Shown here in pieces: positions 20,823 to 25,470 of a stretch of 54,670 bases of DNA. The DNA is from Alistipes sp. Lineage in GTDB: Bacteria > Bacteroidota > Bacteroidia > Bacteroidales > Rikenellaceae. Under the pieces are notes generated by a model. That model searched no databases. It worked only from the letters and a program-made list of their open reading frames with translations, and was not told where the DNA came from. The first letter of the stretch is position 1. The number at the start of each line of letters is the position of its first letter. The DNA lies in NCBI GenBank assembly GCA_017531305.1, contig JAFXLG010000012.1, forward strand, positions 1-54,670, in the 5' to 3' direction. Made by a program: the position numbers and the translations under genes.

Positions 20823-21401
20823 ATGAAAGTAGAAAATAGCAAGATGGTGTCAGTACACTATACACTGACAGTCGATGGACAGATAGCAGACAAGTCTGCT
20901 GAGGGCAAGCCATTGCAGTTTATCTGTGGTGCAGGTATGCTTTTGCCTAAGTTCGAGGGTGCAATTTTGGGCAAGGAGCCAGGCGATAAGGTGTCGTTCA
21001 CATTGGAGCCAAAGGATGGCTACGGCGAGTTCAACCCAAATGATGTTATAGAGTTATCAAAGACTATCTTTATGATTGACGGTAAGCTTGCCGAGGATAT
21101 TCTTTTCGTAGGCAACACTATCCCTATGATGAAGGGAAATCAACCTACTTACGGCGTAGTGAAGGCTGTTGGCGAGGAGACTGTAACTATGGACTTCAAC
21201 CCACCTATGGCTGGCAAGACTTTAAACTTCGATGTAGAGGTTGTCGATGTACGCGACATGACTGCCGATGAGATCAAGGCTATGCAGCAGTGTGGCGGAT
21301 GCCACGGTGGCTGCGAGGGCGGATGCCACGGTGGCTGCGAGGGCGGCTGCGAAGGTGGCTGCGAGGGTGGCTGCGAAGGCGGTTGTGAGGGTTGCAACTA
21401 A
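20823..21401 (+). CDS. SlyD-type FKBP peptidyl-prolyl isomerase with Cys-rich tail
   Basis: Two-domain FKBP of the SlyD/FkpA-like type: the FKBP part (VSVHYTLTVDGQIADKSAEGKPLQFICGAGMLLPKFEGAILGKEPGD) is interrupted by the insert-in-flap chaperone domain and closes with NFDVEVVDVRDMT. It catalyses prolyl isomerisation and acts as a cytoplasmic chaperone; there is no signal peptide. The last ~37 residues are a four-residue repeat (CEGG/CHGG) with 10 cysteines and two histidines, encoded by 12-bp DNA repeats. E. coli SlyD has a His/Cys-rich Ni-binding tail, so I infer metal binding here, but with thiols dominating. 192 aa, own promoter and terminator. Confidence 0.88.
   Translation: MKVENSKMVSVHYTLTVDGQIADKSAEGKPLQFICGAGMLLPKFEGAILGKEPGDKVSFTLEPKDGYGEFNPNDVIELSKTIFMIDGKLAEDILFVGNTIPMMKGNQPTYGVVKAVGEETVTMDFNPPMAGKTLNFDVEVVDVRDMTADEIKAMQQCGGCHGGCEGGCHGGCEGGCEGGCEGGCEGGCEGCN
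21296..21396 (+). repeat. 12-bp tandem coding repeats (Cys-Gly tail)
   Basis: Roughly eight imperfect 12-bp units of the type GGCTGCGAGGGC / GGATGCCACGGT encode the C-x3-C tail of the SlyD-like protein. Units differ mostly at silent third positions and at the His/Glu position. Copy number is likely to vary between strains by slippage. Confidence 0.8.
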
Positions 21402-21504: not shown

Positions 21505-22641
21505 TTGCAAGTGATACTTATCTCCCATATCGTTGACTCATTGGCAAGTCCATTCACCCTTTGGCGCACGCTCAAGGGTGTGGAGGTCGTATGCCACCAT
21601 GGACGACCCATATATTCGGCAGGCAATGCCTCGGTGGTCTTTCAGGTGTGGCACGAGGGTAGAAAAAAGACGTTGAAGTGTTACATCCGCACATCCAAGA
21701 ATCTGCCACACATCTACAAATCGGATTTCTACGCCAAGGAGCTTTGCGTATTCGACATCTCGGGCAGACGTCAATGGGTGGATTGCCTGCTTACACCCTA
21801 CACGGAAGGCATAACACTCGATGAGGCAATCTGCAATGCAGAGACCAAAGAGGAGTTTACGCTACTCGCCCACGAATTTGACCGCATGGCTCGGTGGCTT
21901 TTGGAAAAGCCTTTTGCGCATGGAGACCTAAAGCCCGAAAACATCATTGTCACAAACGAGGGCAAGATGCGAGCCATAGATTGGGATGCTGCCTTCCTAC
22001 CTGAGCTAAGACAAAATTCCGCCACAGAGTGCGGCACAGCAGCTTATCAACATCCGTAGCGCGACAAAGAGATGTACGATGAGCATATCGATGACTACTC
22101 GATAGCGATGATCTCCACCATGTTGCACACTTATGCTCTGCGACCCGAATTGAGCCTTCACTTCAAATCGCATCACGAGCCTGAGTTTCTGCCTAAAGCC
22201 TTCATCAGCGGGGCTGAGGGCTATGAGATGATTCTGGATGAATTTTCGCGCCGAGGCATGGCTCGAGAGTATAACGTAGCCAAGATGCTCCGCAGTCAAC
22301 ATCCTCAACTCTTTGATCTAAAGCGTGTGATGAGCATAAAATGCATCGTGGGCGAAGATCTGCGCGCCTCATTGGATGAGGAGCGTGGCATGTGGGGATA
22401 CCGCAATGAGCAAGGTTGGGTGGTGGCTCCACTTTATGACATGGGATTTGACGCGATAGATGGTGTGGCACTTGTACGGCTGGGCGAATATCAGCACTTC
22501 ATCACCATGCAAGGACAAAGCCTAAGAAGATTTCCTGCCCAGCTAAAGATCAAGCCCCTAAGAGAGCGCAAGGCTCTTATCCACACCGCAGAAGGAAAGG
22601 AGGAGATTATCACACTTGGGGAGTTGGTAAAATATGAATAA
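21505..22641 (+). pseudogene. Ser/Thr protein-kinase-fold protein, interrupted by in-frame TAG
   Basis: One reading frame, 378 codons, with TAG at 22057-22059. Before it: a glycine-loop-like YSAGNASVVFQV, K58 (TLKCY), the catalytic loop HGDLKPEN (139-146, D141 intact), a DFG equivalent D159-W-D, and the P+1 loop GTAAYQHP immediately before the stop. After it, in the same frame and without other damage: RDKEMYDEHIDDYSIAMI (kinase C-lobe) and a WG-like repeat (GMWGYRNEQGWVVAPLYD). No ATG precedes the domain; only TTG at 21505 or GTG at 21511 is available. Either a recent nonsense mutation or read-through. First gene of a trio with the vWA and pseudokinase genes. Base use is like the neighbours. 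Confidence 0.75.
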
Positions 22642-22699
22642 TTCTCTATCTTTGCCTAAAGTTAAGAATTAGAAGCCACTATACCCATTTAGCCAAAAG

Positions 22700-23554
22700 A
22701 TGTATTCGCAAGAGATCACACGCCGTCATCGTACCGCAATAGTCATTGCACTCGATCAATCCACATCGATGCAGGAGGAGTTGCGCTTTGGTCGTCTGAG
22801 GATGAGCAAAGCCGAAGCTGTGGCATATACGGCAAATATCTTGATTACGGAACTCATCGACCGTTCTCGCCGCAAGGATGGCGTACGCGACTACTATGAC
22901 GTGGCGGTAGTGGGCTACTCGAACGATGAGGTTCGGAATCTGCTTTCGGATGGGGGTTTTGTCTCAATAAAAAGGCTTGCAGAGCGTATGCCCGAGGTTG
23001 TAACACTTTCGTTTGAGGAGGTGATGCCCGACAAGAGTACGGCTCTTGTCAAGCACAACATACATCCTTGGATCGAGCCACTTGCCGAGGGAAACACCCC
23101 ACTATATGAGGCTTTGTTACGTATCAGAGAGATGGTAGAGGAGTGGTGTGAGCAGGAGCAGAACAGAGAGAGTTTTCCGCCCATTGTATTCAACATCACC
23201 GATGGTGAGGCTTCGGATTGTGACGACAACGAGCTTCGCTACGCAGCCGACATGTTGCGCCGTACGGGAACAGATGATGGAGATACGCTATTGATAAACA
23301 TACATCTTTCGACCGATATTTCGCAACCCTCGATGATATTTCCGATGGCGGAGGAGCTTTTATCGGCAAACCGCTACGCACGTCTGTTGGCAGAGTGTTC
23401 GAGTATAATGCCTGAGAGTTTTAATTCGGAGATCTCGGCTTTGAAGAGTATGGCGGCTACGCCACCCTACTACGCTATGGGTTACAACTCTTTGCTCGTT
23501 GAGCTTCTCTCGATTATCAATATAGGATCACGCAGTATAACCAACATGGAGTAA
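22700..23554 (+). CDS. vWA-domain protein with complete MIDAS
   Basis: 284 aa, cytoplasmic, a single von Willebrand factor A domain. The metal-ion-dependent adhesion site is complete: D19-Q-S21-T-S23 (IALDQSTSMQ), T133 (EGNTPLYEAL) and D168 (NITDGEASD). It therefore probably binds a divalent metal and a protein partner. It resembles TerY-type vWA proteins that travel with protein kinases. It starts 58 nt after the kinase frame and its stop overlaps the next start by 1 nt (TAATG), so it is translationally coupled to the pseudokinase gene. Confidence 0.85.
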   Translation: MYSQEITRRHRTAIVIALDQSTSMQEELRFGRLRMSKAEAVAYTANILITELIDRSRRKDGVRDYYDVAVVGYSNDEVRNLLSDGGFVSIKRLAERMPEVVTLSFEEVMPDKSTALVKHNIHPWIEPLAEGNTPLYEALLRIREMVEEWCEQEQNRESFPPIVFNITDGEASDCDDNELRYAADMLRRTGTDDGDTLLINIHLSTDISQPSMIFPMAEELLSANRYARLLAECSSIMPESFNSEISALKSMAATPPYYAMGYNSLLVELLSIINIGSRSITNME

Positions 23555-24525
23555 TGGCTACGACAATTTCATCACTACGCAGAGCCCTGAATGAGCCACA
23601 AAGCCATTTCTCTATGCTCTCATCGATTCAAAAAGTCGAAGGAAACATCATACGTTCCACCCACTTTGCTGAAGTCCAGATCGAGTGGCAAAATGAGGCG
23701 TGGCTTTTGCTTATGCCCCTTACGCCATGCGCCATGCGCCGCATAGAGCGTCTGGAGCCTAAAAAACGGCACCTATCTTCGGACATAATGCCCGAGATCC
23801 GCATCCTAAAGAATGAGATGCTTTATGAGTGTTGTGCCGAGCAATTCAGATGTGACATCGTTTTGGAGAAGCTACCCGAAGCACTTGCCCTAAAGGACGC
23901 TATTGCTTCGCTCTCAAGTCATGCGGAAGCTGAAAAACTGATTGCGGCATTAGAGCATTTGGAGCAAGAGTTGAGCCGACTTGGCATTTCGCACAATAAT
24001 CTGCGCGAGGAAAATTTACTCATAGATTCAGACGATAAACTCTACCCCATACGTTGGTATTATGCCACCGCCAATCGTCACTGCGATGATGACAACATCG
24101 GACAACTAAAGGATAAGATCCGCGAGCAGGCACAAAATATGGAGTTTCACGAGAGCTACGCCTCATACTCCACTCCTGAGCCTGAAAAGGCGGAGTATAA
24201 GGATATACGTTTCCTGCATGAAGGATTGATTGCCTTCGAGACGGAGTGCGGTTGGGGATATATGGATGCCCAGCGAAGGATTATCATCGAGCCGCACTAT
24301 TTATGGGTTAACGACTTCAAGGAGGGACGCGCCGAGGTCGAGACCGAGCAAGGCATGGGACTCATTGACAGGCAAGGGCAGACGATAATACCTGCTATTT
24401 ACCAGATAGTGGATTACAACCCTGTGAGTGGAAATTCCGAAGTACGCCATGATGAGAAGTGGGCATTGTTTGATTATCAGGGCAAGCAACTCACCCCATG
24501 GGGAGAATATGAAATTGAGTTATAA
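23554..24525 (+). CDS. Pseudokinase with WG repeats
   Basis: 323 aa. The middle part aligns with the first gene of the trio: HNNLREENLLIDSDDKLYPIRWYYAT here against HGDLKPENIIV...AIDWDAAF there. The catalytic Asp is N149 and the DFG Asp is R167, so I infer a kinase fold without activity. The C-terminal ~110 residues contain two to three WG-type repeats (GWGYMDAQRRIIIEPHY, GMGLIDRQGQTIIPAIY, KWALFDYQGKQL). There is no signal peptide or membrane segment. Overlaps the vWA gene by 1 nt and is followed 21 nt later by trxB. Likely an adaptor or regulator in the trio. Confidence 0.7.
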   Translation: MATTISSLRRALNEPQSHFSMLSSIQKVEGNIIRSTHFAEVQIEWQNEAWLLLMPLTPCAMRRIERLEPKKRHLSSDIMPEIRILKNEMLYECCAEQFRCDIVLEKLPEALALKDAIASLSSHAEAEKLIAALEHLEQELSRLGISHNNLREENLLIDSDDKLYPIRWYYATANRHCDDDNIGQLKDKIREQAQNMEFHESYASYSTPEPEKAEYKDIRFLHEGLIAFETECGWGYMDAQRRIIIEPHYLWVNDFKEGRAEVETEQGMGLIDRQGQTIIPAIYQIVDYNPVSGNSEVRHDEKWALFDYQGKQLTPWGEYEIEL

Positions 24526-24546: not shown

Positions 24547-25470
24547 ATGGAAAGAACAAAATGCCTTATTATAGGTAGTGGTCCTGCAGGATTCACAGCA
24601 GCTATCTATGCTTCACGCGCCAACCTCGCTCCTATCCTTTATGAGGGTATCGAACCCGGAGGTCAGCTTACTACAACAACCGAGATAGAGAACTTCCCTG
24701 GTTATCCTGAGGGTATTACAGGTACTGCCATGATGGCTGATCTGAAGAAGCAGGCTCAGCGTTTCGGCGCAGATGTACGTTTCGGTATCGTCACTGCCAT
24801 CGACTTCGATGTACGTCCTTTCGTGGTGACAATTGATGGCGAGAAGCAGATCGAGGCAGACTCTTTGATCGTTGCCACAGGTGCTTCGGCAAAGTATTTG
24901 GGTTTGGAGTCTGAGGCTAAGTTCAGAGGCATGGGCGTGAGTGCCTGCGCAACATGTGACGGATTCTTCTATCGCAAGCAAGATGTGGCAGTGGTAGGTG
25001 GTGGCGACACCGCTTGCGAGGAGGCTACCTATCTGGCATCTATCTGCCGTCAGGTATATCTTATCGTGCGTAAGCCATTCCTGCGCGCATCGAAGGCTAT
25101 GCAGGAGAGAGTATTCAACACACCAAACATCAAGGTGATGTTCGAGTACAATACAGTCGAGGTTTTGGGTGATGAGGACGGCGTTACGGGAGCACGTCTG
25201 CGCCACACATCGGGTGAGGAGACTACAATCGACATCATGGGATTCTTCCTCGCTATCGGTCACCATCCTAACACCGAACTCTTCAAGGGTAAATTGGAGC
25301 TCGATGAGGAGGGTTACATCAAGACCATCCCAGGCACATCGAAGACCAACATCGAGGGAGTCTTTGCTGCGGGCGATGTGAAAGATCCTCACTACCGTCA
25401 GGCAATCACAGCAGCTGGTTCGGGATGTATAGCAGCTCTGGATTGCGAGCGTTACCTTTTGAGCAAATAA
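24547..25470 (+). CDS. trxB: Thioredoxin reductase
   Basis: FAD/NADPH enzyme that reduces thioredoxin. 307 aa, standard low-molecular-weight form. FAD motif CLIIGSGPAGFTAAIYASRA, redox pair C134-A-T-C137 in CATCDGFF, NADPH motif VVGGGDTACEEA, and C-terminal GVFAAGDVKDPHYRQAITAAGSGCIAALD. Sits 21 nt after the pseudokinase gene and 4 nt before rnz, so it may be co-transcribed with both. Confidence 0.96.
   Translation: MERTKCLIIGSGPAGFTAAIYASRANLAPILYEGIEPGGQLTTTTEIENFPGYPEGITGTAMMADLKKQAQRFGADVRFGIVTAIDFDVRPFVVTIDGEKQIEADSLIVATGASAKYLGLESEAKFRGMGVSACATCDGFFYRKQDVAVVGGGDTACEEATYLASICRQVYLIVRKPFLRASKAMQERVFNTPNIKVMFEYNTVEVLGDEDGVTGARLRHTSGEETTIDIMGFFLAIGHHPNTELFKGKLELDEEGYIKTIPGTSKTNIEGVFAAGDVKDPHYRQAITAAGSGCIAALDCERYLLSK

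Follow-up and report, generated by a model that had tools for sequence, protein, structure and literature searches.

A kinase, vWA and pseudokinase gene trio conserved across Rikenellaceae and related to the TerY-P triad

The closest described relatives of the genes considered here are the TerY-P triads, which, as outlined in a section of PMC11090510, combine TerY, a von Willebrand factor type A (vWA) protein, with a PP2C phosphatase and a Ser/Thr kinase carrying a zinc ribbon; the same section cites Gao et al. 2020, in which modules resembling TerY-P but with a kinase of the OB-fold kind are reported to act as antiphage systems on their own. The DNA analyzed here (hereafter, the window) is a single contig of 54,670 nucleotides (JAFXLG010000012.1) from a draft assembly of Alistipes sp. 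(GCA_017531305.1; 2.05 Mb, 72 contigs, 86.76% complete), a member of the Rikenellaceae (order Bacteroidales). It contains 3 consecutive genes (Table 1): gene 1, of a kinase family denoted K1, gene 2, encoding a vWA protein, and gene 3, of a kinase-like family denoted K2. We put at about even the chances that this trio is a phospho-signaling module derived from TerY-P, in which a dead kinase paralogue has taken the operon position of PP2C. A TerY-P origin is suggested because the vWA protein matches TerY, intact K1 proteins match a TerY-P kinase best, and phylogenetic trees place the trio beside triads that retain PP2C. The preliminary description of this DNA had suggested a possible new signaling module; the conservation of the trio with a pseudokinase and without PP2C speaks for that proposal, but the TerY match, the STK_OB matches and the trees make the module a derivative of TerY-P rather than something wholly new.

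Gene 2 matches the TerY model of PADLOC (PDLC02224) with an E-value of 1.5e-46 over almost its full length (residues 2–279 of 284 on model positions 3–273 of 277). Against Pfam, it gave only a sub-threshold match to VWA_2 (E = 0.047), and no vWA was found by sequence when the gene 2 profile was compared with known structures. As first described, the protein is a vWA with a complete metal-ion-dependent adhesion site (MIDAS), composed of D19-x-S21-x-S23, T133 and D168, and these residues are conserved over 59 aligned rows (D19 in 58, S21 in 59, S23 in 59, T133 in 55 and D168 in 58). The vWA protein of L088, from Alistipes sp., is 61% identical to that of the window. The stop codon of gene 2 (TAA, 23552–23554) shares 1 nucleotide with the ATG of gene 3 (23554), so that the previously noted coupling of the 2 genes by a 1-nt overlap holds.

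The pairing of an active kinase with an inactive paralogue, also put forward in the preliminary description, holds over the family rows examined, as far as motifs can tell. Gene 1 has an active-looking kinase site (HGDLKPEN and IDWD), with the catalytic and metal-binding Asp residues present. In the alignment of K1 from the genus of the window (32 rows that cover 340 or more model positions and the 2 pieces of the window gene, with L031 and L033 left out), 33 rows, among them the first piece of the window gene, can be read at the active site. The catalytic Asp is found in 32 of these 33 (Gly in L049), whereas the metal-binding Asn is invariant, as is the DFG Asp (33 of 33 each). HGD..N, DxD and the beta-3 Lys are kept in all 16 readable K1 rows from other genera, the uncounted ones being L120, of which the extract used ended before the motif, and L129, which is not a K1. 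The first piece of gene 1 matches Pfam Pkinase at 1e-6 and 28.8 bits, not reaching the curated cut-off of 31.7, and the K1 family profile matched kinases among solved structures (best E-value, 4.5e-8). The best PADLOC match of intact K1 proteins is STK_OB (L032, 5e-17; L116, 9.3e-27; L127, 1.5e-35). Instead of an OB fold or a zinc ribbon, neither of which is listed by Pfam for K1 of L042, L116 and L127, these 3 proteins carry WG repeats (WG_beta_rep; 4.2e-10, 2.3e-42 and 2.1e-27, respectively).

In gene 3, the corresponding motifs are HNNLREEN and IRWY, the catalytic Asp being replaced by Asn and the DFG Asp by Arg. Its only Pfam match above the cut-off is WG_beta_rep (1.5e-14), and no PADLOC model matched it. 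Comparison of the gene 3 and K1 profiles with hhalign yielded a probability of 99.6% (E = 2.4e-24), indicating that the 2 families are paralogous. Neither the catalytic Asp nor the DFG Asp occurs in any of 43 gene 3 rows of the genus (44 passing rows, less L049, where gene 3 shares a frame with TrxB). Among 20 K2 rows from other genera, 3 of which (L110, L113 and L131) align poorly, the catalytic Asp is likewise absent, its position being occupied by Asn, Ala, Arg, His or Gly, and a DFG-type Asp is present in 1 (L130). As a separate observation, gene 3 is joined to thioredoxin reductase in an unbroken frame of 643 codons in L049 (7929–9857), the genome of which also encodes the K1 with Gly in place of the catalytic Asp. 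The genome of the window further encodes another protein, in a frame of 652 aa, that has numerous matches to WG-type repeats (G000:C6:30032-31408).

When the vWA protein of the window alone was used as a query, matches were obtained in 57 of 60 relatives from the same genus and in none of 40 genomes from other families. A vWA profile matched 182 of 200 genomes of the family, covering 22 of 22 genera, and 103 of the 109 with a completeness of 90% or more and a contamination of 5% or less; matching genomes have a single copy, except for G134, G174 and G190, which have 2. In broader draws, the profile matched 9 of 295 genomes across the order, 3 of them members of the family, and 18 of 395 across the phylum, one being that of the window itself. 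The linkage of the 3 families was assessed in 59 loci of the genus (57 relatives, L088 and the window) and 21 loci from other genera, and is conserved. The N-terminal match to gene 3 starts between −5 and +41 nt from the vWA stop codon in 48 of the 59 genus loci and between −2 and +25 nt in 18 of the 21 others. K1 lies upstream of vWA in 34 of the 59 (16 directly and 18 with approximately 1.8–2 kb in between; the interrupted K1 of the window is left out of the 34) and in 17 of the 21. At the genome level, K1 is present in 31 of 37 genus genomes, in 10 of these 31 on a contig different from that of vWA, and gene 3 was found in 32 of 34 vWA-positive versus 0 of 3 vWA-negative genus genomes (E < 1e-30). 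Across the family, K1 was detected in 63 of 67 vWA-positive versus 6 of 20 vWA-negative genomes when both K1 searches are considered. Among genomes of at least 90% completeness, these numbers are 39 of 40 and 1 of 6, the single match in the latter group being fragmentary, with 113 of 380 positions (Fisher p = 2.6e-5, an indicative figure that overstates independence given that the genomes are akin). Joint loss of linked genes from vWA-negative assemblies could also contribute to this association, and is lessened but not removed by the restriction to at least 90% completeness; both caveats weaken the case for coupling. The lineage of G003 and G029 has no K1 match at 1e-8, and its vWA proteins (L085 and L087) sit on the longest inner branch of the vWA tree (1.87), which would fit joint action of vWA and K1, although long branches have other explanations as well.

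A PP2C neighbor, which would have marked the trio as an ordinary TerY-P set, was not found. The PADLOC model of the TerY-P PP2C matched none of 120 family genomes, including that of the window, and none of 14 control genomes, whereas it matched 5 of 6 outgroup genomes used as a positive control. A local PP2C profile had no match in 79 family loci, the window not being among them, and matched 8 of 10 loci from the phylum, in all 8 of which a kinase was also seen (in L178 and L179, neither was seen). In the outgroup loci read, PP2C is the next gene after vWA: it was matched by PADLOC in L141 (1.8e-9), L143 (3.2e-11) and L144 (2.6e-23) and found through genomes G494 and G357 for L142 and L145; no PP2C was seen in L140, a contig of 4.3 kb. 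We also considered whether a PP2C could be hidden between K1 and vWA and rejected this, the extra gene being DUF4954-DUF6819 in the 2 loci inspected by Pfam (L042:5274–7001 and L041:5147–6874), where it directly precedes vWA; a gap of about the size of this gene separates K1 from vWA in 18 genus loci. PP2C_2 (PF13672) had no match in 31 of 37 genus genomes, SpoIIE-type PP2Cs not being covered by the search. The strongest PP2C_2 matches among the 37 belong to G003, G028 and G029.

Phylogenies were calculated from subsets of the sequences (47 of 85 vWA rows and 52 kinase rows for the earlier trees; 41 kinase and 38 vWA rows for the later ones). In the careful kinase tree, K1 (97/92), K2 (100/99) and K1 together with K2 (99/93) each form a group, and on this sequence evidence a single duplication of the kinase before the family diversified is indicated. 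The same tree unites K1 and K2 with the kinases of the PP2C-bearing loci L170, L141 and L143 to the exclusion of other triad kinases (100/99). In a quick vWA tree, the family is recovered as a single group (96), and L170 and the DarT loci lie closer to it than the classical triads do (97). The resemblance to TerY-P triads thus extends from the almost full-length TerY match and the closeness of the K1 kinase domain to STK_OB (the window's own gene being interrupted) to the linkage of the genes and the C-terminal repeat or binding region of the kinase. The trio differs from these triads in that no PP2C was found with it and a pseudokinase paralogue occupies that slot, in the WG repeats of K1, and in its presence in most genomes of one family.

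Two kinds of loci outside the family are of particular relevance. L170 (3376–8072), from a genome of the same class but a different family (G758), encodes a kinase with 9 WG matches, TerY and PP2C. It shares with the trio a Ser/Thr kinase bearing WG repeats and a TerY vWA, and lies near the family in both trees; it differs in having PP2C directly 3' of vWA, a divergently oriented kinase and no separate pseudokinase within the 14 kb read. L170 thus looks like an intermediate between ordinary triads and the trio of the window. The DarT-TerY loci L141 (5710–8762), L142 (1244–4280) and L143 (5771–8667), from other families of the order, encode a TerY vWA close to that of the trio, with PP2C directly downstream, and a TerY-P kinase in L141 and L143 (the kinase end of L142 is cut by the contig start). 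Unlike in the trio, their vWA follows a DarT domain within a fusion protein, a DUF6939 gene lies upstream, and the kinase repeats are LRR_5 (L141) and Sel1 (L143). In L140, DarT, DUF6939 and vWA are separate genes.

In the simplest history, the family ancestor would have had a TerY-P triad whose kinase carried repeats, and the kinase gene would have been duplicated; one copy would then have lost catalysis and come to occupy the operon place of PP2C, after which the trio would have been largely inherited vertically, consistent with the single clade formed by the genus in the vWA tree (support 91) and with the upstream gene clusters shared by 15 of the 21 loci from other genera. As to how such a module might work, vWA, with Mg2+ at its MIDAS, would bridge K1 and K2 in one complex, and, in line with the gating proposed in the preliminary description, the dead kinase fold of K2 would set the activity of K1 allosterically. 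The WG repeats of both kinases, located where other TerY-P kinases have an OB fold, a zinc ribbon, LRR or Sel1 repeats, may dock the target, and switching off would depend on restraint by K2 or on a general phosphatase, not on a dedicated PP2C.

Table 1. Features of the gene trio and its flanks in the window.
Feature	Position	Strand	Basis or remark
Gene 1 (K1), Ser/Thr kinase of the TerY-P type, ending in a WG-type region	21505..22641	+	Split by TAG
Gene 1, first piece	21505–22059	+	184 aa; GTG at 21511 aligns with the start in relatives
In-frame TAG within the gene 1 kinase domain	22057–22059	+	Sequence
Gene 1, second piece	22060–22641	+	In frame with the first piece
Gene 2, TerY-family vWA with complete MIDAS	22700..23554	+	PADLOC TerY PDLC02224; MIDAS conservation
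Gene 3 (K2), WG-repeat pseudokinase paralogous to gene 1	23554..24525	+	Pfam WG_beta_rep; hhalign with K1
FKBP-type isomerase gene, 5' flank of the trio	20823–21401
Thioredoxin-reductase-like gene, 3' flank of the trio	24547–25470

The flanking genes recur in part. Within the genus, TrxB follows the trio in 30 of 58 loci and an FKBP cluster precedes it in 26 of 58. The FKBP-type isomerase beside gene 1 has a tail of Cys, Gly and His repeats that resembles a metal-binding tail. In those loci inspected where K1 is not adjacent, the upstream genes are unrelated to the trio and encode MFS proteins, a glycosyltransferase, an amidohydrolase and others. In 2 loci from other genera, L116 (1241–5198) and L127 (856–4825), the trio lies downstream of genes for prephenate dehydratase, prephenate dehydrogenase and DAHP synthase/chorismate mutase, joined in L127 by an aminotransferase gene among the upstream genes of aromatic amino acid synthesis; these neighbor clusters recur in up to 15 of the 21 loci from other genera. 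Neighbor clusters were computed over 79 loci, and the 7 neighbor proteins annotated came from 2 loci of other genera, so that an effector among the recurring neighbors could be missed.

Gene 1 of the window is not a single open frame: a TAG overlooked in the preliminary description lies in the activation segment of K1 (Table 1). The idea that TAG is a sense codon was discarded; within the window, it terminates 11 of 43 other non-overlapping, mechanically called open reading frames that span 150 aa or more, and is therefore an ordinary stop here. The K1 profile matches both pieces of the gene (first, 4e-77; second, 1e-55 on model positions 187–379). Near-invariant K1 positions are intact on either side of the stop (35 of 35 before and 15 of 15 after), so the lesion would have arisen recently, if it is not a strain variant or an assembly error. 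Of the WG-type ends ascribed to both kinases, that of gene 3 is upheld by Pfam, whereas that of gene 1 lies wholly downstream of the TAG, in a piece that matched no Pfam family but is covered by the K1 profile. In a count of split genes over the window and 58 loci (L031–L088), K1 was whole in 33 cases and split in 1, that of the window being the only K1 split found (L033, with a frame change near the C-terminal end, was scored as whole); gene 3 was whole in 44, with a single split copy (L031), vWA was whole in 59 of 59, and 5 neighboring genes used as controls gave 146 whole copies and no split, the remaining partial matches lying at contig ends or being weak paralogous hits. Recurrent nonsense mutations in K1, suspected for G006, G021, G176, G199 and G134, were dismissed, the pieces scored apart being proteins that end there (model positions 208 to 374). 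In the nearest relative, G010 (L031:1562–2497), gene 3 likewise carries one in-frame TAG.

Because K1 is truncated within the kinase domain, the module of the window itself is probably crippled, barring an error of assembly or a strain variant at the TAG. Whether the locus is a decaying remnant without function is a question for this genome, and we regard an affirmative answer as possible but somewhat doubtful: the interruption of the kinase domain by a stop codon in regular use and the TAG in gene 3 of G010 point to decay, whereas genes 2 and 3 are intact, as are the near-invariant K1 positions beyond the stop, and a draft assembly as fragmented and incomplete as this one leaves room for an error or a strain variant. 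Much less probable, in our estimation, is that K2 is not dead, its altered active site catalyzing another transfer reaction. Some pseudokinases, such as SelO and SidJ, do carry out other transfer reactions, and many K2 rows from other genera retain the beta-3 Lys, the alpha-C Glu and the metal-binding Asn, so that nucleotide binding is conceivable for them. Yet the residue at the position of the catalytic Asp varies among genera with no fixed alternative catalytic residue seen, K2 branches are long in the kinase tree, and the 7 genus rows aligned with the K2 rows from other genera lack the beta-3 Lys. An unlikely, though more serious, competitor is that the trio still serves in anti-phage defense as an ordinary TerY-P triad minus PP2C, the kinase triggering arrest or death upon infection. 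The antiphage activity of TerY-P-like modules with OB-fold kinases cited above, the PADLOC matches of the trio proteins and the fusion of some outgroup TerY genes to DarT agree with such a role, and relocation within the genus would suit a mobile set. It is harder to reconcile with a vWA gene that 182 of the 200 family genomes have, with the single vWA clade of the genus and with the neighbors common to many loci, all of which contrast with the patchy distribution of defense islands, and with the mostly biosynthetic or housekeeping nature of those neighbors that are annotated, which are a minority.

A TerY-P-derived signaling module with a pseudokinase in the place of PP2C thus remains the reading that we prefer, although several observations weigh against it. 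In an earlier, quick kinase tree with 3 outgroup rows, K2 was recovered as a group (100), whereas K1 was not resolved as one, and support for K1 and K2 together was only 85. The beta-3 position of K1 in the genus is Lys in 12 of 33 rows and Arg in 21, a substitution that often kills kinases, and K1 is the more dispensable part, being unmatched in 4 of 67 vWA-positive genomes and broken in the window. About half of the genus loci have neighbors different from those of the window, which implies that the trio has moved within the genus. As for the missing phosphatase, PF13672 matches occur in 6 of 37 genus genomes, always on contigs other than that of vWA, one of them, in G011, approximately 8.4 kb from a relocated K1; PF13672 is a weak model for TerY-P PP2Cs, and other phosphatases could act in trans. 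Finally, the ternary complex of K1, vWA and K2 is one that we infer indirectly.

Because most genomes of the family keep the trio, often at shared loci, resident stress or envelope signaling, rather than mobile defense, is the likeliest use. We tentatively suggest, with less confidence than in the TerY-P derivation itself, that the ancestor of the family, probably the Rikenellaceae, domesticated a phosphatase-reset TerY-P defense triad into resident signaling by exchanging PP2C for a pseudokinase derived from the kinase of the triad. The reversible kinase/phosphatase switch would thereby have become a K1 gated by its dead twin and a metal-dependent vWA bridge. The trio is not described in the titles and abstract openings listed from the literature on TerY-P, WG repeats, DarT-TerY and Bacteroid pseudokinases, and, to our knowledge, bacterial pseudokinases with a conserved partner have rarely been documented. 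Here, a whole family of gut bacteria retains an active and an inactive kinase together with a TerY adaptor, and PP2C-bearing relatives remain for comparison, which makes the role of TerY vWA proteins in kinase signaling, and the way in which a defense cassette turns into a resident gene set, open to experiment. WG repeats, the ligand of which is unclear, gain a defined setting. If our suggestion is true, the Rikenellaceae would provide an example from bacteria in which a pseudokinase has taken over from a phosphatase.

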